From positions 806,001 to 870,000 of the forward strand of contig JAHXHN010000003.1 of the NCBI GenBank assembly GCA_025656675.1: 64,000 bases of DNA, written 5' to 3'. The stretch is from Candidatus Thiodiazotropha sp. (ex Codakia rugifera) (GTDB lineage Bacteria; Pseudomonadota; Gammaproteobacteria; Chromatiales; Chromatiaceae). A program made the position numbers and the translations under genes. Under the pieces are notes generated by a model. That model worked only from the letters and a program-made list of their open reading frames with translations, made no database searches and had not been told where the DNA came from. Of the stretch, positions 2,671-61,799 are shown in pieces; the stretch's first letter is position 1, and each line of letters opens with the position of its first letter.

Positions 2671-3933
2671 ATGAAAAAACACCAGACACCGATGCTTGAC
2701 CAATTGGAGAGTGGCGAGTGGCCAAGCTTTATCACTGGCATTAAACGTCTGCGAGATCATCATATCAACCAGCGTATTCGTGAAACCAATAACGATCTGC
2801 TTGGGCAATTGGAGCATTCCTATCAGACGATCAAAGGTTATTGGAAAGGTGGAACAGTCAGTGTATTTGGTTATGGTGGCGGTATTATTCCCCGTTTCTC
2901 TGAAGTAGGTGAGTTATTCCCTAAATCGAAAGAGTTCCATACCTTACGCGTGCAACCTCCTGCCGGTAACTACTACACAACCGATTCCCTGCGACGCCTG
3001 GCTGACAGTTGGGAAAGATGGGGATCGGGTCTGGTCACCTTTCATGGTCAGACTGGAAACATAATGTTCATCGGCGCGAGCACGGAAAATACCCAACATT
3101 TTTTTAACGAGATCAACGATTATGGTTTTGATTTGGGTGGCGCTGGTCCCTGTGTTCGTACTGCTCAATCCTGCGTGGGTTCAGGACGTTGTGAGCAGTC
3201 CTGTACCAATGAACACAAAATCCACCGCAAACTGATCAACAATTTCCTTGATGAGATGCACCGTCCTGCCCTGCCCTATAAATTTAAATTCAAGATCTCA
3301 GGATGTCCCAATGATTGCATGAATGCCATTGAGCGCGCCGATTTTGCTGTGATAGGTACCTGGTGTGATGAGATGCAGGTGGATCAGCACGAGGTCAAGG
3401 AGTATGTCGCAAAAAAAGGACGTAAGTACATTATTGACAATATCATAACCCGTTGTCCAACTCGTGCATTGTCTTTGAATGATAATGACACGCTGAGTGT
3501 AGACGATCGCAACTGCGTACGTTGCATGCATTGTTTGAATGTCATGCCCAAGGCACTCTCACCAGGAAAGGACAGGGGCATCAGTATACTGATTGGCGGC
3601 AAACGCACCCTGAAAATCGGTGATCGCTTCGGCACCGTCATTGTGCCTTTTATGAAGCTGGAAAATGATGAGGATTATGAACGCCTGGTTGAACTCTCTG
3701 AGGAAGTCATCGATTTCTTTGCTGAGAATGCCCTGGAACATGAGCGCATTGGAGAGATGATAGAGCGAATTGGACTGGTTAATTTTCTTGATGCACTGAG
3801 TATTGAAATGGATCCCAACATGATCGTACATCCAAGGGAAAACTCATACGTCCGCACCGACGGCTGGAATGAAGAGGCTGCCAAGTGGACTGAACGCCAG
3901 GCACGCGACAAGCATAGCGCTGATGCAGCATAA
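2671..3933 (+). CDS. dsrA: Dissimilatory (reverse-type) sulfite reductase alpha subunit
   Basis: DsrA is the alpha subunit of the cytoplasmic siroheme sulfite reductase; in sulfur oxidisers it works in reverse, turning sulfane sulfur into sulfite. The 420-residue product shows the siroheme-[4Fe-4S] cysteines as CX5C (C168, C174) and CX3C (C212, C216 in SGCPNDC). It has an inserted ferredoxin domain with C262 and C282/C285/C288 (NCVRCMHC followed by VMPKAL, as in purple sulfur bacterial DsrA). The ATG at 2671 is chosen because GAGGAGAG lies about 8 bases upstream; an in-frame ATG at 2611 has no ribosome binding site and no family-like sequence after it. dsrB follows after 12 bases. The usual downstream dsrEFHCMKLJOPN genes are absent here. 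Confidence 0.96.
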   Translation: MKKHQTPMLDQLESGEWPSFITGIKRLRDHHINQRIRETNNDLLGQLEHSYQTIKGYWKGGTVSVFGYGGGIIPRFSEVGELFPKSKEFHTLRVQPPAGNYYTTDSLRRLADSWERWGSGLVTFHGQTGNIMFIGASTENTQHFFNEINDYGFDLGGAGPCVRTAQSCVGSGRCEQSCTNEHKIHRKLINNFLDEMHRPALPYKFKFKISGCPNDCMNAIERADFAVIGTWCDEMQVDQHEVKEYVAKKGRKYIIDNIITRCPTRALSLNDNDTLSVDDRNCVRCMHCLNVMPKALSPGKDRGISILIGGKRTLKIGDRFGTVIVPFMKLENDEDYERLVELSEEVIDFFAENALEHERIGEMIERIGLVNFLDALSIEMDPNMIVHPRENSYVRTDGWNEEAAKWTERQARDKHSADAA

Positions 3934-49367: not shown

Positions 49368-49895
49368 ATGGCAACGAAATCAGAAACAGAAGAAGGCTCG
49401 GGCCTGGCTAATGGCCTGTTCCTATTTGTTGTTCTTCTCCTATTCTGGATGCTTCTGACGGGCAGCCTGGACCCTAGTGAAATCATTACAGGTGCTGTCG
49501 TAGCACTGGTCGTCACTTTGACCAGCCGCCCTCACCTCGCTATCTACTCGGGACTGCGCCTCACTCCGAAGGCCATTCTTCCCATAATCAACTATCTTGG
49601 CGTCTTCTTTTGGGAACTGATACTTGCCAATATCGATATGGCAAGGCGGGTACTTTCTCCCTCTTTGCCACTGCGTCCTGCCGTCGTTGAAGTCAGAACC
49701 GATTTACGTTCCCCACTTGGCCGATTGGCCCTGGCCAACAGTATTACACTGACCCCGGGCACACTGACTGTCGATGTTCAGGACCAGACACTCCTGGTCC
49801 ATTGGGTCGACACCCCACCCGACATTGATATTGAAAATGCCACCCGCAAAATCACAACCAAGTTTGAACGGCATCTGAAAGGCTTTCTGAAATGA
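49368..49895 (+). CDS. mnhE: Mrp antiporter subunit MnhE / MbxA-like
   Basis: The 175-residue membrane protein is an MnhE/MrpE family subunit, with N-terminal helices (LFLFVVLLLFWMLLTG, ITGAVVALVVTLT), a FWELILANIDMARRVLSP segment, and a cytoplasmic tail with LALANSITLTPGTLTVDV. It opens a tightly packed operon: its stop overlaps the next start (ATGA). In stand-alone Mrp antiporters MrpE comes mid-operon with MrpA before it. Here the order E-F-G first, with no MrpA, matches the MbhA/MbxA position of archaeal membrane-bound complexes. Confidence 0.9.
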   Translation: MATKSETEEGSGLANGLFLFVVLLLFWMLLTGSLDPSEIITGAVVALVVTLTSRPHLAIYSGLRLTPKAILPIINYLGVFFWELILANIDMARRVLSPSLPLRPAVVEVRTDLRSPLGRLALANSITLTPGTLTVDVQDQTLLVHWVDTPPDIDIENATRKITTKFERHLKGFLK

Positions 49896-50158
49896 CATTG
49901 ACCCTGATGGAAACAGTCGCCTTGGCAATACTAGGCAGCGCAATCGTATTGAGTCTGTTGCGATTACTGCTCGGCCCAACCGCACCCGACCGTGTTGTAG
50001 CGGCTGATACGCTGGCAGTGATCACCACTTCCGGATTGGTGGTATTGGCAGCCCTGTTGGCAAGCCCCCTCTATCTGGATGTAGCGCTGATATACGGCAC
50101 TCTGGCCTTTGTCGGTGTTGTCGCCATCGCTCGAGCCATTGAGGGCAATGGCTCATGA
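49892..50158 (+). CDS. mnhF: Mrp antiporter subunit MnhF / MbxB-like
   Basis: The 88-residue protein has three membrane helices with the MnhF pattern LGPTAPDRVVAADTLAVIT and YLDVALIYGTLAFVGVVAIAR. It is part of the Na+/H+ antiporter-like membrane module. It overlaps the neighbouring genes on both sides by 4 bases, indicating translational coupling. Confidence 0.92.
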   Translation: MTLTLMETVALAILGSAIVLSLLRLLLGPTAPDRVVAADTLAVITTSGLVVLAALLASPLYLDVALIYGTLAFVGVVAIARAIEGNGS

Positions 50159-50475
50159 GAATACTGGCGGATATATTTCTACTCATCGGCGCAACTTTCA
50201 CCCTGTTCGGATCGATAGGGCTGATACGTATGCCGGATGTCTACAACCGAATCCAGGCTGGCACCAAGGCTGTCACCCTTGGCTCGCTCTCTCTGCTAAT
50301 CGGTATTGGCCTGCTCTATCCGCAGTGGTGGCCAAAGCTATTGATCATTGGCCTACTGATTTTAATCACCAACCCCCTGGGCTCATCCACCATAGCCAGG
50401 GCCCTGCTGAAATCGGGTGTACAGCCATGGAAAAAGGCCGAAGCCAAAACCTCAGAGGATAATAGCAATGGGTGA
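50155..50475 (+). CDS. mnhG: Mrp antiporter subunit MnhG / MbxC-like
   Basis: The 106-residue protein has three membrane helices and the MnhG signature FGSIGLIRMPDVYNRIQAGTK. It is followed by TNPLGSSTIARALLKSGV near the C-terminus. It overlaps mnhF by 4 bases and the next gene by 8. It belongs to the antiporter-like sub-module (MbxC position). Confidence 0.92.
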   Translation: MRILADIFLLIGATFTLFGSIGLIRMPDVYNRIQAGTKAVTLGSLSLLIGIGLLYPQWWPKLLIIGLLILITNPLGSSTIARALLKSGVQPWKKAEAKTSEDNSNG

Positions 50476-50779
50476 ACTGGAAATCTGGATTGCCCTATTG
50501 CTGGGATTGATGATGCTGAGTGCGGCGATATTGGTGCTGCTGGTCAAGAATCATATTGCAGCCGTAGCTGCAGCCTCTGTTGTCTCTCTTGGGCTCGCCC
50601 TGCTGTTTGTACTGATGAGGGCACCTGATGTGGCCATGACTGAAGCTGCTGTTGGCGCCGGTCTAAGCAGTTTGATTCTCGCGCTTGCAGTAAAACGACT
50701 GGGCCTCTGGCGAATTGAGGGAAAAATAACCCGTTCCAGCCTTTTAGCGACTAACACCAGGAGGGAGAAGGATGCGTAA
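50468..50779 (+). CDS. DUF4040 subunit (MrpA C-terminal / MbxD-like)
   Basis: The 103-residue protein has three membrane helices. Its pattern, NHIAAVAAASVVSLGLALLF followed by MRAPDVAMTEAAVGAGL, marks the DUF4040 domain, found in the C-terminal part of MrpA and as free MbhD/MbxD in membrane-bound hydrogenase-type complexes. The PDVAMTEAAVGAG segment holds the conserved polar residues of this proton/sodium path. The ATG at 50468 overlaps mnhG by 8 bases. A free DUF4040 subunit without the rest of MrpA argues against a simple antiporter. Confidence 0.87.
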   Translation: MGELEIWIALLLGLMMLSAAILVLLVKNHIAAVAAASVVSLGLALLFVLMRAPDVAMTEAAVGAGLSSLILALAVKRLGLWRIEGKITRSSLLATNTRREKDA

Positions 50780-51458
50780 CCTAACCGGCCTGCTGTTTGC
50801 CGGTGGCCTTGGCTTCATGTTGTTGTCGATCGCGATCAATCTCGATTTCGGTACACCGACAATGCTGATAGGCGGTGCCATCCAATCCAAGGCATTACAA
50901 GAAACAGGGGCGACCAATATTGTCACCTCAGTGGTGTTGGGTTATCGCGGAATCGATACCCTGGGAGAACTCTCCATCCTGTTTGCTGCAGCGGCCTCTG
51001 CAGGATTGATACTGGGCCGTCGACACACCACTGCAGGCACTCAGACTGCAGGAGGTTTCGTGTTGCGGCATGGTGGATCCATGCTCTTCCCCCTATTGAT
51101 GACCATTGGTTTCTACATCATTTTTCATGGCCACTTGTCGCCTGGTGGTGGCTTTCAGGGTGGCGTCATTTTGGCAGCTGCCTTCTTTCTGCCTCTGCTG
51201 GCGCGTCCTGGCGCACAATTGCATCACGGCACCTTGAGTCTGATCGAGGGTTTTGCCGGAGCCAGCTTTGTCCTGATCGGACTGATCGCCCTGCAACAAG
51301 GCAAAGCCTTTCTGCAGCCCATGTTGATTCAGGACACATTAGGGGTATTGCTTTCAGCAGGTACCCTGCCATTACTCTATTTGGCGGTAGGTTTGAAGGT
51401 AGGCGCGGAACTGGCAAGTCTGCTATCCCATCTTGCTCAGACGGAGTCGGATGTATGA
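50772..51458 (+). CDS. mnhB: MbhE-like domain fused to MnhB (MbxF-like)
   Basis: The 228-residue protein joins an N-terminal MbhE-type region (about 1-85, with TNIVTSVVLGYRGIDTLGE) to a C-terminal MnhB domain (about 95-228, with FYIIFHGHLSPGGGFQGGVI). In Mrp both parts belong to MrpA/MrpB; in Mbh they are separate subunits E and F. A strong AGGAGGGAGAAGG precedes the ATG, the best ribosome site in the operon. It overlaps its neighbours on both sides. Confidence 0.87.
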   Translation: MRNLTGLLFAGGLGFMLLSIAINLDFGTPTMLIGGAIQSKALQETGATNIVTSVVLGYRGIDTLGELSILFAAAASAGLILGRRHTTAGTQTAGGFVLRHGGSMLFPLLMTIGFYIIFHGHLSPGGGFQGGVILAAAFFLPLLARPGAQLHHGTLSLIEGFAGASFVLIGLIALQQGKAFLQPMLIQDTLGVLLSAGTLPLLYLAVGLKVGAELASLLSHLAQTESDV

Positions 51459-51934
51459 TCCCAGACCTTACGCTTGAACTGATCCTCTACAGCACAGCTT
51501 TGGGGCTGGTCTCTATCGGTTTGGCCGGTTTAGTGCTATCCCGCCACTCGTTTCGAAGGGTGCTTGCACTGGTGATTGCTGAAGCGGGTGCCAATCTGAT
51601 GCTGGTATTGGCTGGCTATCGCTGGGATGCAGTGGCTCCGATCGTGACTACGTTAGGTAAACAGCCGCAAATGGTCGATCCTGTACCTCAGGCCATGGTA
51701 CTCACAGCCATTGTTATCGGTGTGGGCATTCAGGCATTGGCTGTCAGTATCCTGATCCGCATCCACCAACGCTACCACACCCTTGATCGTAACGAGATGG
51801 CTGAATTGATGGATGCTGAGATCGCAGCCACAGCAGGTACGGCACGTGATGTCAGTCAGGAATCACCGCTGGGTGAACGTCCGATACCACCCATCACGGG
51901 TAGCGCGGTTCAAGCACGTGGAGGCAGGTCATGA
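51455..51934 (+). CDS. mnhC: NuoK/MnhC-like subunit (MbxG-like)
   Basis: The 159-residue protein has three membrane helices typical of NuoK/MnhC, including the conserved acidic position in VIAEAGANLMLVLAGY and the helix AMVLTAIVIGVGIQALAVSI. A 45-residue hydrophilic tail extends beyond the usual length. NuoK-type subunits form part of the proton path in complex I. It overlaps mnhB and the next gene by 4 bases each. Confidence 0.9.
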   Translation: MIPDLTLELILYSTALGLVSIGLAGLVLSRHSFRRVLALVIAEAGANLMLVLAGYRWDAVAPIVTTLGKQPQMVDPVPQAMVLTAIVIGVGIQALAVSILIRIHQRYHTLDRNEMAELMDAEIAATAGTARDVSQESPLGERPIPPITGSAVQARGGRS

Positions 51935-53406
51935 ATGAGCACCTGATGCTGACCATTGCGCTGCCGCTACTGGGTGCATTTCTCCTGCCGATCATCATGC
52001 GCAGCAGCCTGGCAATGGGCGTGTGGATCGGTCCTGCCATTCTTGGCTATGGTTGCTGGATATTGGGCAATCTGTGGCTGCATGGAAATGGGCAACCCTT
52101 CTCGATTGCCATCGGCGGATTTGCACCGCCGATAGGCATCAACCTCTATGTGGATGCAATGGCCCTCCTGTTCGCCTTTGCCACCCAGCTGTTGGGCCTC
52201 ATCTTCTGGCCCTTCAGGCTTGACCAGGACACACCCAAACGCCAGGCACTGATGCTGCTGCTTGTCGCCTCTTCCACAGGACTTGCGCTATCCGGCGACC
52301 TCTTCAATTTGTATGTCTTCTATGAACTGGTAGCCGTCTCAACCTTTGGCTTGATAGCCGCCTCTTCGAGTGGTGCTGCCTATGTTGCGACTATTCGCTA
52401 CCTGATCCTGAGCGGAATCGGTTCGGTATTGACACTTTTCGGCATCGCATTGATCTATGCCCAGACAGGCACACTCAATTTAGCGCATCTGGCACAACTT
52501 GCACCGGATCAACTCAACAATGACCTGGGCCTTGCTGCATTCCTCGCCATACTCATCGGTATCGGCGTCAAAGCCGAGCTTTTCCCGGTAAACACTTGGG
52601 TACCTGAAGTCTATGCTACTGCGGCTAGCCGCCTCTCGGCATTTCTTGCCGGACTGGTATCAAAGTTGGCGATGCTGGTTATCCTACGACTGCTGCTACT
52701 CATCTTCCATCAGCCCGAAGCCACCCAAGTGATCCTGATCCTCGGTATTCTCGGTGTGATCAGTGGCGAGTTTGCAGCCTGGCGCGCCAAGGATATGCGT
52801 CGCATGTTGGCCTTTTCTTCAATCGGGCAGCTGGGTGTCATCTTCATTGCTGTGGCCTTACCTGACGAACGGGGTGTTTTAGCCGTTCTGGCACTCTCTC
52901 TTCACCATATGCTGATAAAATCGGGTCTGTTCATGCTGGCGGATCACTGGGGAGGCTCTTTAGATCGCCTACGTGGTCTTGCCGCCACTTCACCGCTGGC
53001 AGGCGGACTGTTCGTGCTGTTCGCTCTGTCACTCGTCGGTATGCCACCGCTCCCCGGTTTCTGGGCCAAGTTCACCCTGATTACAGAACTGGCAGGACAG
53101 ACCGACCCCCTCTATATGATTGGCCTGTTGGTGTTTCTTCTCGCTACCGTGATTGAAGCCAGTTATCTGTTTCGGGTGGCAGCTAAAATGTATCAGACAA
53201 AACCCACTGAAAATGTTCGTATCAACGCACCTGATTCAGGTGGTCTGTCATTGACCACCGCCTCCCTGTTCGGTGCAGGACTGATCGCTGTCACGGTGAT
53301 GGTATCACCCCTTGGTGAAGCGTTGCAGGCGGTTGCTGCACAGGCACAAGACGTGGATCTTTATATCCAAACCGTCTTACAGCAGCCCCTGGGAGAACGT
53401 CAGTGA
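51931..53406 (+). CDS. mnhD: Antiporter-like subunit MnhD/NuoN-type (MbxH-like)
   Basis: The 491-residue protein has about 14 membrane helices of the proton-translocating antiporter family (NuoL/M/N, MrpD). Visible are NLYVFYELVAVSTFGLIA with the conserved Glu, IGIGVKAELFPVNTWVPEVY with conserved Lys, and KDMRRMLAFSSIGQLGVIF followed by LHHMLIKSGLFML. These carry the central charged residues of an ion channel. It is the first of two such subunits in this operon, as in MbxH and MbxH'. It overlaps both neighbours by 4 bases. Confidence 0.9.
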   Translation: MNEHLMLTIALPLLGAFLLPIIMRSSLAMGVWIGPAILGYGCWILGNLWLHGNGQPFSIAIGGFAPPIGINLYVDAMALLFAFATQLLGLIFWPFRLDQDTPKRQALMLLLVASSTGLALSGDLFNLYVFYELVAVSTFGLIAASSSGAAYVATIRYLILSGIGSVLTLFGIALIYAQTGTLNLAHLAQLAPDQLNNDLGLAAFLAILIGIGVKAELFPVNTWVPEVYATAASRLSAFLAGLVSKLAMLVILRLLLLIFHQPEATQVILILGILGVISGEFAAWRAKDMRRMLAFSSIGQLGVIFIAVALPDERGVLAVLALSLHHMLIKSGLFMLADHWGGSLDRLRGLAATSPLAGGLFVLFALSLVGMPPLPGFWAKFTLITELAGQTDPLYMIGLLVFLLATVIEASYLFRVAAKMYQTKPTENVRINAPDSGGLSLTTASLFGAGLIAVTVMVSPLGEALQAVAAQAQDVDLYIQTVLQQPLGERQ

Positions 53407-55280
53407 TTTTGACACCTTTGGATGAACTTCTACTCTTTTCCGGTGCCACCCTGCTGGTGGCACTGATACTGGGTCGGGGCCTCGCCGCTGGCTGGATGGT
53501 GACCATCCTGTATGGTGGGCAGCTGCTTACGCTGATAAAAATGGCAGCACTGGGATACAGTGACACCATCATCCACGCCAGCATCAACTTTGAAATCATG
53601 GGTCAAAGTCTCTCCTGGCGCTTCGATGCCTTAAGCTGGTTTTTTGCCCTCATCACTGTGGCATCCGCGTTACTGAGCAGCTGGTTTTCATGCGGTGAAT
53701 GGGAACGCAGTTTTAAACAGCATGGTGGCAATATCTGGCTGTACCATAGCGCCATGGCACTGAACGTGTTCACCATGTTGATTCTGTTGGCCAGCGGTGA
53801 CCTACTATCGCTCTTCATTGGTTGGGAGCTGGTCAGCTGGGCAGGATTTTTACTGATGGCCATGGCCGGTGGTGTCGCCACCCGCGCCGCCATGCGTTAT
53901 ATCACCTATGCCATGGCCGGAGGCATGGCAGTTTTTGGTGGTATTGCACTGGTCTACGTGGCAGCCGGTTCACTCCAATATGAAGCCATCCTCACCGCTG
54001 TAGATCAGATGAGTACGACCCAGCTCTGGATGCTGGTGGTGATGTTCGGAAGTGGCTTCGGCATCAAGATGGGGCTTCTCCCTTTCCATCTATGGCAGGC
54101 GCCGGCCTATGCAGAGACACCAGGCCCTGGTAGCGCCTTTCTAGGCGCTATCTCGTCACGGATGGGATTGTTCGCAATACTGCTGGTGCTGGTAAAACTG
54201 TTCGGTATCGTCAATATCGATAGCCTGAAGATACCTTTTACACTGATCGATGCACGGGATCTGCTCGCCTGGATTGCAGTATTTACCATCATACTCCCCA
54301 CCTTCACAGCCATGAAGCAGAATGACGCCCGTCATCTTCTGGCTTGGCACGGTATCGGTCAGGGTGGTTATATGCTGCTGGGAGTGGTCGTCGCCGATGC
54401 GATGGGCGGTGCTGGCGGATTACTGCATGTCTTCAATCATGCAACTTATCAGGCAGCGCTGTTTATGGCGGTCACGGCCGTGATCCATCGTACCGGCACA
54501 TCGGATCTCAACAAGCTCGGCGGACTTGTCGTACGCATGCCGCTCTCTTTCGTGGTGCTACTGGTCGGTATCATCGGCTTGGCCGGTCTACCGCCGATGA
54601 ACGGTTTTGTCTCAAAGTGGCTGGTTTATCGATCGTTACTCAATGAAGGTATGCCCTTGCTGTTCCTTGCAGCCGTCATCGGTACCTTGGGTACCATCCT
54701 TTCAGTCTACAAACTGATCCACAATATCTTTCTGGGACAACTCAGAATCGAACATGAACAGGTAAAAGAGGCTCCCTGGAGCATGATGGTCCCGATGTTG
54801 ATTCTTGCTGCAATCATCTTCATCACCGGCTTGTTTCCCGGTATTCCACTGGCCTGGGTGGCTTCGGTTCAGGAAGTGATCGGCTTACCCGTTACTGACT
54901 ATACCCTGGGTGGCGTCGAGTCGGTCAGTGGCTCACTCGACATGATCTGGGTGATCGGTGTGCTTTTTGCCGGCTTTGGTATTGGCGCAGTGATCTTCTA
55001 CTCCGCCGGTCGCAGCAAGCGGGTACACCAGTTGGATAACTATGCAGGCGGCCACTTTCTCTCCGCCGATGTACGTTATCAGTACAGTGATAATTTCTAT
55101 GCGGGTCTGATGCATCTTATTGGTGGCTGGTACCGGGGTAGTTTCCTCTGGCTGGAGAAGAGCGTTACATCACTGGTCGATTTTATCTCCCTGGTCATGC
55201 AGGGCCTCTATCGACGAGCCAATGCTGAATTCTATCTATTGAGTACAGCACTCTTTGTGATTGCATGGGTGGTGATCTGA
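53403..55280 (+). CDS. Second antiporter-like subunit, NuoL/MbxH'-type
   Basis: The 625-residue protein is a second antiporter-family subunit: SLFIGWELVSWAGFLLMAMA (conserved Glu), GSGFGIKMGLLPFHLWQAPAYA (conserved Lys), and KQNDARHLLAWHGIGQGGYM followed by LLHVFNHATYQAALFMAV. A long C-terminal extension (about 500-625) ends in further helices and could form the lateral helix that ties the antiporter subunits together, as in NuoL and MbxH'. Translation starts at a GTG in a GTGA overlap with the previous stop. Two MrpD-like subunits plus NuoH favour an Mbx/MBS-like complex over Mbh, which has one. Confidence 0.9.
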   Translation: MILTPLDELLLFSGATLLVALILGRGLAAGWMVTILYGGQLLTLIKMAALGYSDTIIHASINFEIMGQSLSWRFDALSWFFALITVASALLSSWFSCGEWERSFKQHGGNIWLYHSAMALNVFTMLILLASGDLLSLFIGWELVSWAGFLLMAMAGGVATRAAMRYITYAMAGGMAVFGGIALVYVAAGSLQYEAILTAVDQMSTTQLWMLVVMFGSGFGIKMGLLPFHLWQAPAYAETPGPGSAFLGAISSRMGLFAILLVLVKLFGIVNIDSLKIPFTLIDARDLLAWIAVFTIILPTFTAMKQNDARHLLAWHGIGQGGYMLLGVVVADAMGGAGGLLHVFNHATYQAALFMAVTAVIHRTGTSDLNKLGGLVVRMPLSFVVLLVGIIGLAGLPPMNGFVSKWLVYRSLLNEGMPLLFLAAVIGTLGTILSVYKLIHNIFLGQLRIEHEQVKEAPWSMMVPMLILAAIIFITGLFPGIPLAWVASVQEVIGLPVTDYTLGGVESVSGSLDMIWVIGVLFAGFGIGAVIFYSAGRSKRVHQLDNYAGGHFLSADVRYQYSDNFYAGLMHLIGGWYRGSFLWLEKSVTSLVDFISLVMQGLYRRANAEFYLLSTALFVIAWVVI

Positions 55281-56176
55281 TGGCACCGATGGAACTTATT
55301 CTCGAACTCACCCTGATGCCACTGATCGCCTTTCTGGTGGGTATGATGATGGTCTTGATGATGCGTCGTATCGCCGCCAAGATACAACGCAGGGTGGGTC
55401 CACCTTTACTGCAACCGCTGTATGACATCGTCAAGTTACACAGTAAACGTACCCAGATTTCCCACGGCCTGATACATGACATCGGTATTATCATGGCAAT
55501 GGGGGGCTATATTGCAGCAGAAACCCTGCTACCTGTGCCGGGTATGAATGGAATTGCTGAGAAGGGAGGCATCATTACCCTGCTCTATCTAATGATGATC
55601 CCCTCTTTGGGCTTGGCTCTGGGTGTCGGTCAGTGCGCTAACCCCAATGGTTCCATTGGTATCGCCCGTGCACTGACAGCCATGCTTGCTTACGATATAC
55701 CGCTGGTAATCGTCATATTCGGCGTTGCCTATGCAGCAGGAACAACCAATCTGGTTGACATCATCGCTCAACAGCAGGCAGGTGGATTTGCAGCCTGGGG
55801 GGCAGTAGAGATGCCGCTACTGGCTATTGCCGGTCTCATTGCGATGCATGCCTCACTGGGCAAGCAACCCTTTGAGATCTACATTGCGCCAGCGGAGATT
55901 GCAACCGGCCCGATGGTAGAGATGAGCGGGAAATACCTGGGTGGCCTGTTTGTCATGCAGTGCTTCCAGCTCTATACCACATCGGTACTCTACGTCAGTC
56001 TGTTCCTGGGCGGTGGCACTACCTGGTTCGATTTTCTGTTGAAAAGTTTCCTGGTACTCGCCATCCCGGTCAGCATCGCCTATCTATTTCCCCGCTACCG
56101 CACCGAAGACCTACTGAGACTGATGTGGAAATGGCCGGTGATGCTGGGACTGATTGGGGTAGCGTTTGTTCTATAG
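55280..56176 (+). CDS. NuoH/HyfC-like membrane subunit (MbxM-like)
   Basis: The 298-residue protein has about eight membrane helices of the NuoH/complex I subunit 1 family, which anchors the peripheral arm and forms the quinone or substrate cavity. It shows KIQRRVGPPLLQPLYDIVKL, then ALTAMLAYDIPLVI, and PFEIYIAPAEIATGPMVEMS. The Glu-rich loop of the family is retained in part (EIYIAPAEI, EMSG). The ATG at 55280 overlaps the previous stop (TGATG). The gene is followed by a 144-base repeat-filled gap, the first break in the otherwise overlapping operon. Confidence 0.9.
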   Translation: MAPMELILELTLMPLIAFLVGMMMVLMMRRIAAKIQRRVGPPLLQPLYDIVKLHSKRTQISHGLIHDIGIIMAMGGYIAAETLLPVPGMNGIAEKGGIITLLYLMMIPSLGLALGVGQCANPNGSIGIARALTAMLAYDIPLVIVIFGVAYAAGTTNLVDIIAQQQAGGFAAWGAVEMPLLAIAGLIAMHASLGKQPFEIYIAPAEIATGPMVEMSGKYLGGLFVMQCFQLYTTSVLYVSLFLGGGTTWFDFLLKSFLVLAIPVSIAYLFPRYRTEDLLRLMWKWPVMLGLIGVAFVL

Positions 56177-56320
56177 AGTTTTGAATTTTGAATTTTAAGT
56201 TTTGAGTTGATTTGTGTGCTATGCACACGTTTGTTTTTATAATAAGCGTGAGTGAAGCGAACACCGACACTCAAAACTAAAAACTCATAACTCAAAACTC
56301 ACCACTCTTTGGTGAAAACG
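56177..56320. repeat. Palindromic intergenic repeat, copy A
   Basis: The gap is filled by imperfect GAGTTTT/GAATTTT units on the left, a core with GTGTGCTATGCACACG and GCGTGAGTGAAGCGAACACC, and complementary AACTCAAAACT units on the right. Related copies fill the gaps at 57601-57736 and, inverted, 61187-61290. Confidence 0.75.
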
Positions 56321-57034
56321 ATGAGTTCAATAAACCAGATCCCGGTGATCGAGGCGAAGAGAGGCAACCCACTGTCGAAGGTATTCGACGAACTGGTGCG
56401 TTTCTGCCGCTCACGTTCGCTTTTCATACTGCACTACTGCACCGGTTGTGGGGCTATTGAACTGCCCCCTGCCATGACCTCCCGTTTCGATATGGAACGG
56501 CTGGGTATTCAACCGATGGTCTCACCGCGCCAGGCGGACATATTGCTGATTACCGGCTATGTATCGATCAAAACCCTGAAGCGTGTAATCCTGACTTATG
56601 AACAGATGGGATCGCCAAAATACGTTATCGGGATCTGTTCATGCACTGTCAATGGCGGTATGTATTGGCAAAGCTATGCGACCGCAAAGAAACTGGATGA
56701 ATATATGCCGGTCGATCTCTACATCGCCGGCTGTATGCCACGGCCAGAAGCGGTCATCGCCGGCCTGCAACAACTGATGAACAGAATCCAATCAGGGGAA
56801 GCTAACAGCTGGGAAGATTATTTTCGCAACTATGATTATTACCTGGGCAATCAACAAAAGCTGTTTGGCGATAATTGGCAGACCCCTACCGATATCATTA
56901 CGGAAGCTAAACACTATAACCTGATGGGTGAAGGCACATTTGGTGAACATACCCGCCTGCTGGAGCAGCATCAGAAGCCTCTGGAAGCCCTGGATATGCG
57001 CTTGGGCCACAATTTAAAGGAGCCTACTGAATGA
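56321..57034 (+). CDS. NuoB/hydrogenase small-subunit-like protein (MbxJ-like)
   Basis: The 237-residue soluble subunit carries the proximal [4Fe-4S] cluster ligands as HYCTGCGAIE (C40, C43), GICSCTVNGG (C106) and AGCMPRPEA (C138). CxxC at the first position is the hydrogenase/Mbh/Mbx form; complex I NuoB has two adjacent cysteines instead. The ATG at 56321 is preferred to one at 56309 because it begins closer to the conserved region. Its stop overlaps the NuoC-like start (ATGA). Confidence 0.9.
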   Translation: MSSINQIPVIEAKRGNPLSKVFDELVRFCRSRSLFILHYCTGCGAIELPPAMTSRFDMERLGIQPMVSPRQADILLITGYVSIKTLKRVILTYEQMGSPKYVIGICSCTVNGGMYWQSYATAKKLDEYMPVDLYIAGCMPRPEAVIAGLQQLMNRIQSGEANSWEDYFRNYDYYLGNQQKLFGDNWQTPTDIITEAKHYNLMGEGTFGEHTRLLEQHQKPLEALDMRLGHNLKEPTE

Positions 57035-57600
57035 GTCAGGAGATCGCCCACTGGTTGGATAATCTGCTGGAAGAGATCGAGGGCATCGAGATACGACGCA
57101 AGAGCAGCCGCCGGGTGCGCGTGGATGTTCCTGCAGACGCCCTGCCCGCCCTGCTTGAGCTCTTGCAGGGCCGCGCAGGTTATATCCATCTCTCCGCCAT
57201 CAGCTGTGTCGACTGGATCGATGATGAAGAATTCGAACTGGTCTACCATGTCTGGTCTTATGAAAACCATTCTCTCGTATCTGCACATATACGTATTGCT
57301 CGTGAACCGGGTGTCTATCTGTCGGTCTACGATCTCTATCAACCGGCAGCTTTTTTTGAGCGCGATATCCATGAGATGTACGGCATCCATTTCGAAGGCA
57401 GTCCCAACATGGGCAAATTCATTCTCACTGAGTGGGATGGCCCTCCTCCTATGCGCAAAGAGTTCGACAGCGAGGCCTACATCAATGAACATCTTAGCTG
57501 GCAGGAGTACAACCCGCCTTGGCTGCAAGCACTGATCGCTGAAGGTGGCGGTGTGGTGATTCCGCCGGAAGAGCAGCGGTTCAGTCGAAAAAAGAGTTAA
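57031..57600 (+). CDS. NuoC-like 30-kDa subunit (MbxK-like)
   Basis: The 189-residue protein belongs to the complex I 30-kDa (NuoC/HycE N-terminal/MbhK) family. It has ISCVDWIDDEEFELVYHVWS, LSVYDLYQPAAFFERDIHEM followed by YGIHFEGSPNMGKFIL, and PPMRKEFDSE. It stabilises contact between the NuoB- and NuoD-like subunits. It overlaps the NuoB-like gene by 4 bases and is followed by a 136-base repeat-filled gap. Confidence 0.92.
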   Translation: MSQEIAHWLDNLLEEIEGIEIRRKSSRRVRVDVPADALPALLELLQGRAGYIHLSAISCVDWIDDEEFELVYHVWSYENHSLVSAHIRIAREPGVYLSVYDLYQPAAFFERDIHEMYGIHFEGSPNMGKFILTEWDGPPPMRKEFDSEAYINEHLSWQEYNPPWLQALIAEGGGVVIPPEEQRFSRKKS

Positions 57601-57736
57601 TTTTAAATTATGAATGTTGAATTTTTAATTAACGAGTATGCAATACGCACAGCCTCATTTACAAAAGCGTAAGCGAAGCGAGCACCGAAATGCATAATTC
57701 AAAATTCAGCATCCAAAATTAACGAGCAACACGAGC
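57601..57736. repeat. Palindromic intergenic repeat, copy B
   Basis: Copy B has TTAAATTATGAATGTTGAAT-type units on the left, a core with GTATGCAATACGCAC and GCGTAAGCGAAGCGAGCACC, and TAATTCAAAATTC-type units on the right. The core parallels copy A at 56177-56320. Confidence 0.75.
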
Positions 57737-58879
57737 ATGAGACCCGAGAACTACGAAGCCCAACGCCAGCCACCGAGTAACGAGTATGAACTCAACTTCG
57801 GCCCCAACCATCCCGGTATCGAGGGCAACTATGCACTGAAGGTTAAACTGCACGGTGATGTGGTGATCGAGGCCAACGCCGACGGTGGATACCTGCATCG
57901 TGGTTTTGAAAAGCTGATGGAACAGCGACTGTGGATACAGAATATCGCCCTGGTGCCACGTATCTGTGTGCCTGATCCCTCACCCATGGAGCTCTGTTAC
58001 TCTATGGCGGTAGAACAACTCTGTGGTCTGGTGGTGCCTAAGCGTGCACAATGGATTCGAGTCCTCCAACTGGAACTCTCTCGTATAGCTGCTCATCTGT
58101 TCACATTTGGTGGGCATGCCGCCACTACCGGCATGTACAGCACCATGTATTGGGGTGTCACTGATCGCGATCTACTGCTTGACCTGTTCGAGGAGTTTAC
58201 GGGTGGTCGGGTCTACAGTATCTATAACATTCCTGGGGGTGTACGTCGGGAACTGCCACCAGGATTCCTGCAGCGTGTCACAGAGACACTCGATTATATC
58301 GAATCGCGCCTCCCCGACTATGACAACCTCTTTTTCAAAAATCAGGTATTTGTCAGACGCGCCAAGGGGGTTGGTGTCATGACCCGGGAACAGGCCCTGG
58401 CCTGGGGGGTTACCGGACCAAATCTACGGGCTACAGGGTTGGCATTCGATGTACGTCGGGACGATCCTTACCAGGTCTACGACCAGCTTGAATTCGAGAT
58501 TCCCACCGAAGAGAGCGGCGATGCGTGGGCACGCACACTGGTTCGGCGCCACGAACTGATGGAGAGTATTCGCATCCTACGGCAGGTTATCGATGCGCTG
58601 CCTGATATCCATGGTTCAATCCGCGCACCGATCCCCAATCCGCTGGCCTGGAATGTCCCTGCCGGGGAGACCTACACCCGGGTTGAATCGTCCAAGGGCG
58701 AGCTTTGTTACTACGTGGTTTCAGACGGAGGTCCAAAACCTTACCGGGTACATGTACGTGGTCCATCCTCCATGCATGCGGTTCAGGTACTGGAAAAACT
58801 CGCCATAGGATCGCGCATTGAGGATATAGCGCAGACGATGTTTTCCCTGGATGCCTGTCCACCTGAAGTGGATCGGTGA
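57737..58879 (+). CDS. NuoD/[NiFe]-large-subunit-like protein, Mbx-type (MbxL-like)
   Basis: The 380-residue protein belongs to the NuoD/[NiFe] hydrogenase large-subunit family (LNFGPNHPGIEGNYALK, YLHRGFEKLMEQRLW, GRVYSIYNIPGGVRRELP, and YVVSDGGPKPYRVHVRGPS). In hydrogenases each end has a CxxC pair binding NiFe. Here the N-terminal motif is RICVPDP with only Cys77, and the C-terminal motif is LDACPPEVDR with only Cys374, the second cysteine being Glu. Complex I NuoD lacks all four. One cysteine per pair is the pattern I recall for archaeal MbxL, the sulfane sulfur reductase catalytic subunit. A NiFe site cannot form, so hydrogenase activity is excluded. The actual substrate is open: sulfane sulfur, a quinone or another acceptor. 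Confidence 0.88.
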   Translation: MRPENYEAQRQPPSNEYELNFGPNHPGIEGNYALKVKLHGDVVIEANADGGYLHRGFEKLMEQRLWIQNIALVPRICVPDPSPMELCYSMAVEQLCGLVVPKRAQWIRVLQLELSRIAAHLFTFGGHAATTGMYSTMYWGVTDRDLLLDLFEEFTGGRVYSIYNIPGGVRRELPPGFLQRVTETLDYIESRLPDYDNLFFKNQVFVRRAKGVGVMTREQALAWGVTGPNLRATGLAFDVRRDDPYQVYDQLEFEIPTEESGDAWARTLVRRHELMESIRILRQVIDALPDIHGSIRAPIPNPLAWNVPAGETYTRVESSKGELCYYVVSDGGPKPYRVHVRGPSSMHAVQVLEKLAIGSRIEDIAQTMFSLDACPPEVDR

Positions 58880-58932
58880 GTTTTGAGTTTTGAGTTTTGA
58901 GTTTTGAGTTTTGAGTTTTGAGTTTTGAGTTA
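58878..58932. repeat. GAGTTTT heptamer tandem repeat, left end of insert
   Basis: More than seven tandem copies of GAGTTTT begin inside the stop codon of the NuoD-like gene (TGA at 58877-58879). They are complementary to the AAAACTC copies at 59332-59364, so the pair bound the four-helix-bundle gene as inverted ends. Confidence 0.92.
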
Positions 58933-58958
58933 ACAGAGTATTGCAGGGAGGCAACTGA

Positions 58959-59324
58959 ATGAGTAATGAAAAACATATTACCAAGAGAAAAAGGTTTGAA
59001 CTTGCAGTTAGAATTATACAACTTGCAAGATATTTACAGACTGAGAAGGACGAGTATATATTGTCCAAGCAAATTTTACGATCTGGTACTAGTATCGGTG
59101 CAGATATTGAAGAAGCAAGCGCGGGGCAGTCGAGAAGGGATTTCAGGTCCAAAATGTCAATTGCATCAAAAGAGGCTCGTGAAACTATGTATTGGCTTCG
59201 ATTAATGAAAAAGACAAGATTCGTGGAGAAAAAGTTGGCAGATTCTTTATTTCATGATTGCAGCGAACTGGTTTCCCTCTTGACATCAATCGTTAAAACT
59301 ACTGCACAGAGATGTGAAGCATGA
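58959..59324 (+). CDS. Four helix bundle protein (IVP/S23 family)
   Basis: The 121-residue protein matches the four-helix-bundle family first described as 23S rRNA intervening-sequence proteins, also related in fold to the accessory protein of diversity-generating retroelements. It shows FELAVRIIQLARYLQTEKDE, LSKQILRSGTSIGADIEEAS, KMSIASKEARETMYWLRLM, and a final LVSLLTSIVKT helix. GGGAGG lies 8 bases before the ATG. It sits inside the Mbx-like operon, bounded by inverted heptamer repeats, and its stop overlaps the next start (ATGA). It has no obvious role in the complex. I infer insertion as a repeat-bounded cassette. Confidence 0.9.
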   Translation: MSNEKHITKRKRFELAVRIIQLARYLQTEKDEYILSKQILRSGTSIGADIEEASAGQSRRDFRSKMSIASKEARETMYWLRLMKKTRFVEKKLADSLFHDCSELVSLLTSIVKTTAQRCEA

Positions 59325-61186
59325 AGGACCCAACTCAAAACTCAAAACTCAAAACTCAAAACTCTGTACTCATTGAGCACAGTGATTCCGGTTCGATTCT
59401 CAGCCCACTAAAGGCACTACAATTCTTAGCCCGCAAACCTGTCACCGTCCCTTTGGAACCCAGACCAGCTGCCGCCAACTATCGCGGCTTTCATCTTAAT
59501 GACAATGAAAAGTGTATTGGTTGCAGTTCCTGCCAAAAAGTCTGTGACAATGCCGCCATCACTATGGTCAAGGTTCCTCATCTGCCAGAAGATCCGGTTA
59601 ATGGCATTCGCAACCTGCGTCCAGCCATCGATTACGGACGCTGCTGCTGGTGCGCTCTGTGCGTCGATATCTGCCCAACCAGCGCCATCTCCCTGTCACG
59701 TGAGTATGTCCATATCTGCACACAGGAGGAGATTGACAGTTATTTCATCCTGCCCGATGAAACCGGTATCCACGGTGAATTCTACGGCCAGGGTTGGCAA
59801 AAAAGCGTTGACTCGGATCTACTCGATTTGGAACGCCAGCCAATGGCCGAGGTAGAGCCAGCAGCACGCATCGATAACTTCGATGAGATTGTCAACGGGT
59901 ATACAGACCAGCAAGCATTGATCGAAGCTTCCCGTTGCGTGCAATGCGGTATGTGCCACGATGCCTGCCCTACCCATATGGATGCACCAGAATACATTCG
60001 CGCCATCTGGCAGGGGAAGCCCGAAGAGGCAGTACGCTGGATCTATCAAAGCAATCCTTTTTCACATGTCTGTGGTCGGGTCTGCACCCATCGTTGTGAA
60101 GATGCCTGCTCCATCGGCAGACGTGGACAACCGGTCTCTATCCGTTGGCTGAAACGTTATGCGATGGATTCAGTGGATCATCAGCGTGTAAAAGAGATTG
60201 CGGCAGAGGGTAAGGTGGATTATTTGAGTGGCCGTCGAATTGCTGTTATCGGTGCGGGTCCTGCTGGGCTGACAGCAGCATACGATCTGGTCCGCAAAGG
60301 CCATGAGGTCAGTGTCTTCGAAGCCAGGAGTCATGCAGGGGGGATGCCACGCTACGGTATCCCGGAATACCGTCTGCCCTATGAAATACTCGATCGGGAT
60401 ATTGACGTGATCACCTCACTCGGGGTGAAGATACAGACCAATACCCGGGTTGGTAACGATATCGGCATGGATCAGTTACAGGCTGATTTTGATGCCGTTG
60501 TACTCGCAATCGGCCTCCATCTGGGGCGTTCCACCCGGATTCCCGGTGCTGAACACAAACAGGTCAGTAAGGCTGTCGATCTGCTGCGCAACATCACAGA
60601 TGGCGAGAAGTTCAAACTACCCAAGCAGGCAGTGGTGATTGGTGGTGGCAATGTCGCTATGGATATCGCCCGCAGTATAGCCCGCCTGCAGAAGCAGCGT
60701 TTTGGTGAGGTAAAAGTCACCGTCACCGCACTCGAGGATAAGGCGCATTTCCTGGCCGACCCAGTGGAGATCAAAGAGTGCAGTGAAGAAGGCATTGAGA
60801 TCTTCGATGCCCGTGGTCCTCAGGAGTGTATTGTCGAAAAAGGCCAGCTCAAGGGTTTACGAACATGGAAGGTTCGCTCCATTTTTGACGAACAGGGAAG
60901 ATTCGCTCCTGCTTATGATGAGAGTGACGAGCTTGTCCATGAGGGCGACATGATCATCGAGGCCATTGGCCAAATGTCGGATGTCAGTATACTCGGGGAA
61001 CAATTGACCGAGGAATTGGAATGGAACCGAGGCCGTATTCAGGTGGATGATAATGGCCATACCTCAGTCGATTGGTTGTGGGCCGCAGGAGACTGTGTCA
61101 AAGGTCCGGATGTAGTGCATGCTGTTGCGGATGGGCACAGGGTAGCAGCCAGTATTGAGCGGTGGCTGTCTGGAAGACAAAAATAA
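59321..61186 (+). CDS. Fusion: Mbx/NuoI-type ferredoxin plus GltD/NfnB-type NAD(P)H flavoprotein
   Basis: Residues 1-16 are encoded by the right-hand AAAACTC repeats (QNSKLKTQNS) and are not family sequence. Residues about 60-125 hold two [4Fe-4S] motifs (CIGCSSCQKVCDN, C65-C75; CCWCALCVDICPT, C108-C118), as in NuoI or MbxN. About 200-280 is a GltD-type Fe-S domain (CVQCGMCHDACPTH, HVCGRVCTHRCEDACSIG). FAD (VIGAGPAGLTAAYDL, about 307) and NAD(P)H (VVIGGGNVAMDIA, about 438) binding folds follow, and a C-terminal GDCVKGPDVVHAVADG. It should pass NAD(P)H electrons to the complex, or the reverse. No other start codon lies between the repeat and the conserved LSPLKALQFLARKP, so the insert seems to have supplied the start. 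Confidence 0.87.
   Translation: MKDPTQNSKLKTQNSVLIEHSDSGSILSPLKALQFLARKPVTVPLEPRPAAANYRGFHLNDNEKCIGCSSCQKVCDNAAITMVKVPHLPEDPVNGIRNLRPAIDYGRCCWCALCVDICPTSAISLSREYVHICTQEEIDSYFILPDETGIHGEFYGQGWQKSVDSDLLDLERQPMAEVEPAARIDNFDEIVNGYTDQQALIEASRCVQCGMCHDACPTHMDAPEYIRAIWQGKPEEAVRWIYQSNPFSHVCGRVCTHRCEDACSIGRRGQPVSIRWLKRYAMDSVDHQRVKEIAAEGKVDYLSGRRIAVIGAGPAGLTAAYDLVRKGHEVSVFEARSHAGGMPRYGIPEYRLPYEILDRDIDVITSLGVKIQTNTRVGNDIGMDQLQADFDAVVLAIGLHLGRSTRIPGAEHKQVSKAVDLLRNITDGEKFKLPKQAVVIGGGNVAMDIARSIARLQKQRFGEVKVTVTALEDKAHFLADPVEIKECSEEGIEIFDARGPQECIVEKGQLKGLRTWKVRSIFDEQGRFAPAYDESDELVHEGDMIIEAIGQMSDVSILGEQLTEELEWNRGRIQVDDNGHTSVDWLWAAGDCVKGPDVVHAVADGHRVAASIERWLSGRQK
59332..59364. repeat. AAAACTC heptamer tandem repeat, right end of insert
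   Basis: Five copies (AACTC then four AAAACTC units) are the reverse complement of the left-hand heptamers at 58878-58932. They are translated as the N-terminus of the ferredoxin-flavoprotein fusion. Confidence 0.9.
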
Positions 61187-61290
61187 TTTTGAATTATAAA
61201 TTATGAATTCTGGAGTTCGCTACGCTCATATTATATTTAATTAAGCTGTGCGCAAAGCACATGCTTCAATTCCAAAATGTTTATTGGAGG
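61187..61290. repeat. Palindromic intergenic repeat, copy C (inverted)
   Basis: Copy C has TTTTGAATTATAAATTATGA on the left and TTCAATTCCAAAATG on the right. Its core, GGAGTTCGCTACGCTCATAT with GCTGTGCGCAAAGCACAT, is the reverse complement of the core in copies A and B, with differences. It fills the gap before the rubrerythrin-like gene. Confidence 0.7.
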
Positions 61291-61295
61291 ATTGC

Positions 61296-61799
61296 ATGAC
61301 AGAAGGCCACAGTAGCGGTTACGAAAGACTGCAATCGAAAAAAAGCCTTGCAGAGATCCTTGAGATCGCGGTTGAGTTCGAACGCACTGCACGTGATTTC
61401 TATACTGACTTGATTCCCAAAGTCAGTAAACAGATCCGTTATCTGGTGGAGGAGCTGGCCGAAGAGGAGCAGCACCATTTTAATCTGTTCAACGAACTCA
61501 AGTCCCGACCCGATATTGAACAGTATATCCATGCCATGGTCGACACACCCGCCAGCGACCAGCGATTTTCCGACGCCATACAGCTTCCCGATTTGGGCGA
61601 AAAACCAGACGACCAGGCAGTCCTGCAATTTGCCTTGGGACGTGAGCATGCCGCTATGGAACAATACCGCTCACTGGCTGAAAGCACTGACGAGGGACCG
61701 ATCAAGGCGTTATTTCTGTTTCTCGCCAATGAAGAGACCCTACACAAAAACCAACTGGAAAAACTCTATTACGAGACTATCCACAGCGGTGGTGTTTGA
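61296..61799 (+). CDS. Rubrerythrin-like diiron ferritin-family protein
   Basis: The 167-residue protein has the ferritin-like four-helix fold with diiron ligands: EFERTARDFY, EELAEEEQHHFNLF (ExxH), GREHAAMEQYRSL and NEETLHKNQLEKLYYE. The C-terminal rubredoxin domain of classic rubrerythrin is missing, as in COG1633-type proteins. The likely role is peroxide or oxygen detoxification near the oxygen-sensitive Fe-S complex encoded upstream. TTGGAGG lies 5 bases before the ATG at 61296; an upstream in-frame start at 61248 lies within repeat sequence. Confidence 0.87.
   Translation: MTEGHSSGYERLQSKKSLAEILEIAVEFERTARDFYTDLIPKVSKQIRYLVEELAEEEQHHFNLFNELKSRPDIEQYIHAMVDTPASDQRFSDAIQLPDLGEKPDDQAVLQFALGREHAAMEQYRSLAESTDEGPIKALFLFLANEETLHKNQLEKLYYETIHSGGV

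Follow-up and report, generated by a model that had tools for sequence, protein, structure and literature searches.

A complete MBX/MBS-type operon with a fused, predicted NAD-type flavoprotein in a sulfur-oxidising symbiont

What does a sulfur-oxidising symbiont do with a membrane complex whose characterised archaeal relative reduces sulfane sulfur? The question is raised by a 64,000-nucleotide stretch of Candidatus Thiodiazotropha sp. (ex Codakia rugifera) (assembly GCA_025656675.1, contig JAHXHN010000003.1, positions 806,001 to 870,000; hereafter the window), in which a complete 13-gene MBX/MBS operon with open frames throughout occupies positions 49368-61186 of the + strand. The reference for such complexes is MBS of P. 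furiosus, which reduces sulfane sulfur (PMC7684303). The proteobacterial version ends in a ferredoxin-like subunit fused to a flavoprotein, and we give about even credence to a membrane complex in which NAD(H) and sulfane sulfur (as polysulfide or persulfide from stored S0) would exchange electrons, with coupling to H+ or Na+ translocation.

Gene order, family placement and catalytic residues

The 13 genes follow the order mbxABCD(E)FGHH'MJKLN of MBS/MBX, an order found again at loci from many phyla with a frequency well above chance. A sequence-only reading of the window had proposed an Mbx/MBS-like complex here, and its subunit order, strand and coordinates from MnhE to the NuoD-like gene were confirmed by open reading frame (ORF) positions and Pfam matches. 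All listed subunits from MnhE to NuoD score above the Pfam cut-off of their own main family except the MbhE half of a joined subunit (PF20501), which at 26.7 bits lies just under the cut-off of 27. The conserved unit extends past the NuoI-like gene to a ferritin-like gene; a scan for promoters and terminators found no clear excess relative to shuffled sequence. The unit consists of the following genes.

49368..49895, + strand: MnhE/MbsA-like subunit (PF01899, E 3.8e-43)
49892..50158, + strand: MnhF/MbsB-like subunit (PF04066, E 5.2e-16)
50155..50475, + strand: MnhG/MbsC-like subunit (PF03334, E 2.2e-24)
50417..50779, + strand: MbhD (DUF4040)-like subunit (PF13244, E 2.3e-18)
50772..51458, + strand: MbhE fused to MnhB (PF04039, E 2.5e-21; PF20501, E 5.9e-6)
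51455..51934, + strand: MnhC, NuoK-like (PF00420, E 2.5e-19)
51931..53406, + strand: MnhD/MbsH-like antiporter subunit (PF00361; best PDB chain 6u8y_H)
53403..55280, + strand: second antiporter subunit, MbsH'-like (PF00361; best PDB chain 6u8y_X, residues 60-620)
55265..56176, + strand: NuoH/MbsM-like membrane anchor (PF00146; best PDB chain 6u8y_M)
56309..57034, + strand: NuoB/MbsJ-like subunit of the proximal [4Fe-4S] cluster (PF01058; 6u8y_J; CTGCG, SC and GC motifs)
57031..57600, + strand: NuoC/MbsK-like subunit (PF00329, E 1.4e-25)
57737..58879, + strand: NuoD/MbsL-like large subunit (PF00346; 6u8y_L; MBX clade in the tree)
59321..61186, + strand: NuoI-like ferredoxin (two CxxCxxCxxxC motifs) fused to an NfnB/GltD-type FAD/NAD(P) iron-sulfur flavoprotein
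61248..61799, + strand: rubrerythrin/ferritin-like di-iron protein (PF02915, E 3.8e-11)

A search for relatives of the NuoD-like subunit returned at least 565 encoding stretches, of which the best 80 loci were kept. A tree of 110 NuoD-like rows (short rows L101 and L111 dropped) was made by a quick method without bootstrap, and several of its reference branches are long; the references were 9 complex I, 3 hydrogenase and 9 hydrogenase-related rows, the last labelled from missing motifs. An MBX group that includes P. furiosus MBS takes in 89 of the 110 rows (Shimodaira–Hasegawa-like approximate likelihood ratio test 99) and stands apart from complex I and the hydrogenases, and within it the window sequence belongs to a 40-row proteobacterial clade (support 100) adjoining spirochaetes. 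Parasulfuritortus cantonensis LSR1 (L041) is a carrier in this clade that has been cultured. Its closest NuoD relatives, at 93-95% identity, come from Candidatus Thiodiazotropha or lucinid-clam symbionts. Placement of the large subunit firmly inside complex I or the group 4 hydrogenases would have told against the sequence-only reading; the tree puts it with P. furiosus MBS instead, and so supports the proposed Mbx/MBS-like complex in a proteobacterium.

Six subunits were also compared with the PDB by sequence and the other seven by Pfam, with MnhE, MbhE+MnhB and NuoC compared with NCBIfam as well. P. furiosus MBS (6U8Y) was the best match for five of the six: 6u8y_L for the NuoD-like subunit (396 bits vs 264 for T. 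thermophilus Nqo4), and, each against the next chain, 6u8y_J for NuoB-like (226 vs 123 bits), 6u8y_M for NuoH-like (174 vs 73), 6u8y_H for MnhD-like (215 vs 138) and 6u8y_X for the second antiporter (173 vs 134). The earlier concern that relatives might be missing subunits does apply to Thiotrichales-like loci, where subunits are missing or scattered. On Thiomargarita/Thiotrichaceae-like contigs (L060-L065, L067) the MBX genes look scattered as far as the contigs reach, with NuoB-NuoC-NuoD or a lone NuoD apart from the membrane genes; RnfC directly follows NuoD in L067, and L060 holds a second NuoD C-terminal piece.

The residues around the catalytic site follow the same family. The catalytic cluster of MBS is bound by three cysteines, C28, C93 and C123; C25, C85 and C385 proved dispensable (PMC7684303). 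The window's NuoB-like subunit has equivalents of the three ligands and the shortened CxxC loop of MbsJ. Its CTGCG motif and two further cysteines recur in 50 of 55 clade rows, a set that includes some genomes fetched twice, the other five rows being gapped there; a tandem CC, carried by all nine Nuo rows, is found in none of the clade NuoB rows that cover the site. In the large subunit the equivalents of MbsL C85 and C385 are kept in 40/40 clade rows, and two of the four Ni cysteines remain, as in MBS. At the positions of the quinone-headgroup residues H38 and Y87 of Nqo4, all 40 clade rows have E and V and all nine Nuo rows have H and Y; across the 43 other MBX rows the Y87 position is V in every case and H38 aligns with H in three. 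Both residues are absent from MBS as well (PMC7684303). A second gammaproteobacterial lineage lacks the first cysteine of the NuoB motif in 5/5 rows and C385 in 5/5.

The fused flavoprotein and its genomic company

The last gene of the operon (621 aa) had been read as NuoI-like. This holds for residues ~24-140, whose best PDB match is 6u8y_N, and the remainder proves to be something else: residues ~170-620 form a flavoprotein module, with Fer4_20, FAD and NAD(P) domains, whose PDB matches are relatives of NfnB and GltD. In NCBIfam the closest model, PRK13984 (‘putative oxidoreductase’), scores 829 bits, under its cut-off of 946. Of the best 80 of at least 565 loci, 64 have a whole NuoI-like ORF, which is fused to the flavoprotein in 58. 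The other six (L076, L080, L084, L086, L102 and L110; three of them archaeal) have a short NuoI ORF, which in L110 may be a frameshift; the rest of the 80 comprise three loci cut by contig ends and 13 without usable NuoI (seven Thiotrichales-like, six at contig ends).

The cofactor pocket of this module can be read against DsrL, in which the YRR site tracks use of NADP(H) vs NAD(H), with kinetics on three enzymes; NAD-type DsrL is associated with sulfur oxidisers and YRR-type DsrL mainly with reducers (PMC7596348). Where NfnB has its NADP-binding YRR, the window flavoprotein has ALE, and the clade has ALE in 30 rows, AME in one and ALQ in one; because the pocket is thus non-YRR in 32/32 rows, we predict that the clade flavoprotein uses NAD(H). 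Outside the clade YRR is found in 18/27 rows, against 0/4 for spirochaetes, and Thermotogae have both types (L099 and L106 non-YRR; L081, L088 and L094 YRR). The YRR flavoproteins form one clade, except for the unlabelled duplicate row L116. The second MBX lineage of Gammaproteobacteria, with NuoD 47-48% identical, divides at this site: L149 and L150 have YRR, and the ALE/AME flavoproteins of L027 and L148 are nested inside the first clade (fork 99/98), which is most simply explained by a swap of the flavoprotein module; L028, with a split ORF, was left unscored. With the YRR/non-YRR split, cofactor use could be predicted simply from sequence throughout the MBX family.

Two further arrangements were seen among these loci. 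In L148-L150, of the second lineage, a single ORF of 1044-1152 aa encodes both antiporter subunits as a fusion. On the Thermotogae/WOR-3-like contigs L081, L088, L093 and L094, ORFs of ~280 aa and ~470 aa (GltD-like) lie downstream of a YRR-type MBX; the shorter is, we presume, NfnA-like, and the two are possibly an NfnAB pair beside MBX.

A rubrerythrin-like gene follows the flavoprotein in 25/25 clade loci with a full flavoprotein and at least 600 nt downstream (29 were inspected), which rules out a chance neighbour for the proteobacterial clade. In the window it probably starts at Met 61296, and its E, ExxH, E, ExxH residues, which we take to be iron ligands, are invariant in 14 aligned sequences. 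Outside the clade the gene is scattered, lying downstream of the operon in L082, L099, L148 and L149 and upstream of it in L088. The C-terminal extension of the spirochaete flavoproteins may be a degenerate fused version of the same domain, an assignment that is supported but weak. A profile of the separate genes matches the L070 flavoprotein (E 7e-9) and found no match in those of L068, L071 and L072; profile-profile comparison of the 14 sequences with the four extensions gives a probability of 86% (E 5e-6). A structural model of the extension (predicted local distance difference test score 74) matches E. coli YciF with a template modelling score of 0.70; against the assignment, its best structural E-value is only 0.008 and belongs to a DUF305 fragment, and a Pfam scan of the four C-terminal domains found no ferritin match.

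The distribution of the complex was surveyed in 369 Gammaproteobacteria genomes, the window's own included, with an MBX cut-off of E <= 1e-90 and the curated cut-off for dsrA. MBX was found in 17 genomes and dsrA above its cut-off in 112, and the two overlap (Fisher p 3e-8, uncorrected for phylogeny): 16 of the 17 MBX genomes are dsrA-positive, and the 17th (G297) has a contig-edge dsrA fragment under the cut-off. These 17 genomes are spread over 15 families, and the complex is present in 20 of the 21 other Thiodiazotropha genomes. The window's genome has two dsrA matches above the curated cut-off, one at window 2695-3903, ~45 kb before the operon, and one at C2:508770-509969, and it also holds a NuoBCD locus.

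Between NuoD and the flavoprotein gene lies a further ORF, probably outside the complex, whose two sides carry heptamer arrays that are inverted relative to each other.

58877..58931: heptamer array TGAGTTT x7.9, on one flank of the inserted ORF
58959..59324, + strand: 23S-rRNA-intervening-sequence-protein ORF (PF05635, E 1e-24)
59332..59364: heptamer array AACTCAA x4.7, on the other flank

Related ORFs occupy the same gap at some Thiodiazotropha loci and are absent from others, and L033/L006 hold three tandem copies. The start of the flavoprotein ORF is uncertain because its first ~15 residues come from the AACTCAA array. The same heptamers form another inverted pair between NuoH and NuoB (window 56176-56307), which encloses no listed ORF of at least 70 aa and resembles an empty or decayed element; a 24-base array also occurs at C2:787304 and C3:607955 of the same genome.

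Electron donor, acceptor and direction

For the electron path, the sequence-only reading had offered NAD(P)H to sulfane sulfur or quinone. The fused flavoprotein favours the sulfane sulfur half of that proposal, and the exchange of H38/Y87 for E/V throughout the clade weakens the quinone half. Electrons would pass from NADH to FAD, through the flavoprotein [4Fe-4S] clusters to the NuoI clusters, and on to the MbsJ-type proximal cluster with its three Cys ligands, where an S–S bond would be cleaved; conformational coupling would run via NuoH to the two antiporter-like subunits and the Mrp E/F/G/B module. In physiological terms, the complex probably discharges NADH onto stored sulfur in anoxia, as a sink onto sulfur globules at low O2 or nitrate that would be reversible in principle. 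The ferritin-like protein may act as a shield against O2 or peroxide for the open catalytic cluster, and is perhaps reduced by the adjoining flavoprotein.

Several points weigh against this reading. Transfer from NADH to S0 has a low energy yield at standard potentials, so that few ions could be moved. The window antiporters keep MbsH E138 and K250 and MbsH' H336, but MbsH H330 is replaced by L in the window, and MbsH' K248 by R in the window and in 28/28 clade and spirochaete rows; pumping may therefore differ from that of P. furiosus. These changes could give a lower ion yield, matching the smaller energy drop from NADH than from ferredoxin. As to the link with sulfur oxidation, just 16 of 112 dsrA genomes carry MBX, from which it follows that rDsr metabolism can do without it, and dsrA was the only gene compared with MBX occurrence. 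One Thiodiazotropha genome, G017, lacks the complex. Finally, the MBX pocket is non-YRR in 4/4 spirochaete rows as well.

The same complex might instead run in reverse, the ion gradient driving electrons from sulfide or persulfide to NAD+, bypassing the quinone pool and supplying an autotroph with NADH. We consider this possible, at a decidedly lower probability. It would fit the NAD-type pocket of 32/32 clade rows and the pairing of NAD-type DsrL with sulfur oxidisers and of YRR mostly with reducers (PMC7596348), although spirochaetes and further lineages have non-YRR MBX too. All 17 MBX genomes in the sampled class have the complex beside dsrA or a dsrA fragment, and the L027 and L148 flavoproteins are nested in the NAD-type clade while their relatives L149 and L150 retain YRR; however, both P. 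furiosus MBS (PMC7684303) and T. maritima MBX (PMC9431562) are published as reducing, and the putative Mrp-Mbx complex of the Riftia symbiont groups with the reductive tricarboxylic acid cycle (rTCA) and not with the Calvin-Benson-Bassham cycle (CBB) or most sulfur oxidation genes (PMC11636981). More doubtful still is the broader scenario in which sulfur-oxidising Proteobacteria turned an NADPH- or ferredoxin-driven pump NAD-linked, with an NAD-type flavoprotein fixed (and, in a second lineage, swapped in) and a ferritin-like guard added, and ran it backwards from sulfide to NAD+; if true, this would be quinone-independent reverse electron transport for autotrophy.

An older proposal for Mbx, a ferredoxin:NAD+ oxidoreductase with Rnf-like ion transport, seems unlikely to us. 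A NuoI-type ferredoxin domain and a flavoprotein do share one chain here, and Mbx was earlier named a ferredoxin:NADP oxidoreductase (PMC4596419), but the proximal cluster of MBS type, the chamber and the coupling subunits would then have no role, and later work showed sulfane sulfur reduction by MBS (PMC7684303). An NADH:quinone oxidoreductase, in effect a second complex I, is improbable. Its NuoB, C, D and H subunits are complex I-like, an NADH module is present and the MBS chamber is similar to that of complex I (PMC7684303); nevertheless, identity as complex I is rejected on the NuoD tree, the loss of H38/Y87 (E/V in 40/40 rows) and the absence of the tandem CC that 9/9 Nuo rows carry, and the genome also has a NuoBCD locus. 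A group 4 [NiFe] hydrogenase or formate-hydrogenlyase-like complex, with which the operon has only the module shared with MBH in common, can be dismissed almost outright and is ruled out as an identity by its two of four NiFe cysteines and a large subunit that falls outside the hydrogenase rows.

Electron exchange between NAD(H) and sulfane sulfur thus remains the reading that we prefer, and it would have consequences beyond this locus. MBS is viewed as intermediate between hydrogenases and complex I (PMC7684303), and the one that has been characterised comes from an archaeon and is driven by ferredoxin. A bacterial form that is widespread and carries an NADH module on the same core would be a second means of linking NADH to this pump. 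Its carriers include organisms whose fixed carbon feeds animal hosts, and the proposal makes testable both sulfur-NAD+ electron flow in chemolithoautotrophs and the use of stored sulfur by symbionts when oxygen fails.

Comparison with known systems

The closest characterised system, P. furiosus MBS/Mbx (PDB 6U8Y), shares with the window operon the subunit order, the two MrpD-like subunits, the MbsJ cysteine motif, MbsL C85/C385 and the missing quinone-site residues, and its MbsE likewise spans MbhE and MnhB modules (PMC7684303). The electron donor of that complex is ferredoxin (PMC7684303), whereas the window operon has NuoI fused to an NAD-type flavoprotein. MbsN (208 aa) matches the NuoI part alone of the window's fused subunit, and the ferritin-like gene after the operon, a feature of the window, is counted as a further difference.

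Three tubeworm symbionts (L039, L040 and L042), which we take to be kin of the Riftia symbiont, have this operon with 81-82% NuoD identity. A ‘putative Mrp-Mbx complex’ is reported in the Riftia symbiont, a sulfur oxidiser like the window organism, where it is known from co-expression: its network neighbours include rTCA, as do those of sulfur globule proteins, and it lies apart from CBB and from most sulfur oxidation genes (PMC11636981). Bacterial Mbx is also already in print for Thermotoga, Caldanaerobacter and Thermoanaerobacter (the last in PMC4595116), so the suggestion that the window holds an undescribed system has to be given up. MBX of T. maritima is alike in being bacterial, in its 13 subunits and in being tied to sulfur reduction by transcription, with mbxA up 4.36-fold with S0, and differs in that ferredoxin is its proposed donor (PMC9431562).

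DsrL and NfnB share with the window protein the FAD/NAD(P) iron-sulfur flavoprotein core and the rule for NAD vs NADP pockets; in DsrL the ferredoxin domain is C-terminal and the partner is DsrAB, whereas in the window the domain is N-terminal, NuoI-like and part of a membrane complex (PMC7596348). In a search of the PMC literature, which leaves subscription papers mostly outside, the matches listed and their excerpts contain no mention of a NuoI-flavoprotein fusion or an NAD/NADP split in Mbx, nor of a ferritin-like partner or of Mbx in Thiodiazotropha. The MBX family in bacteria is already known; what seems to be new is a version linked to NADH, together with its association with sulfur oxidisers.

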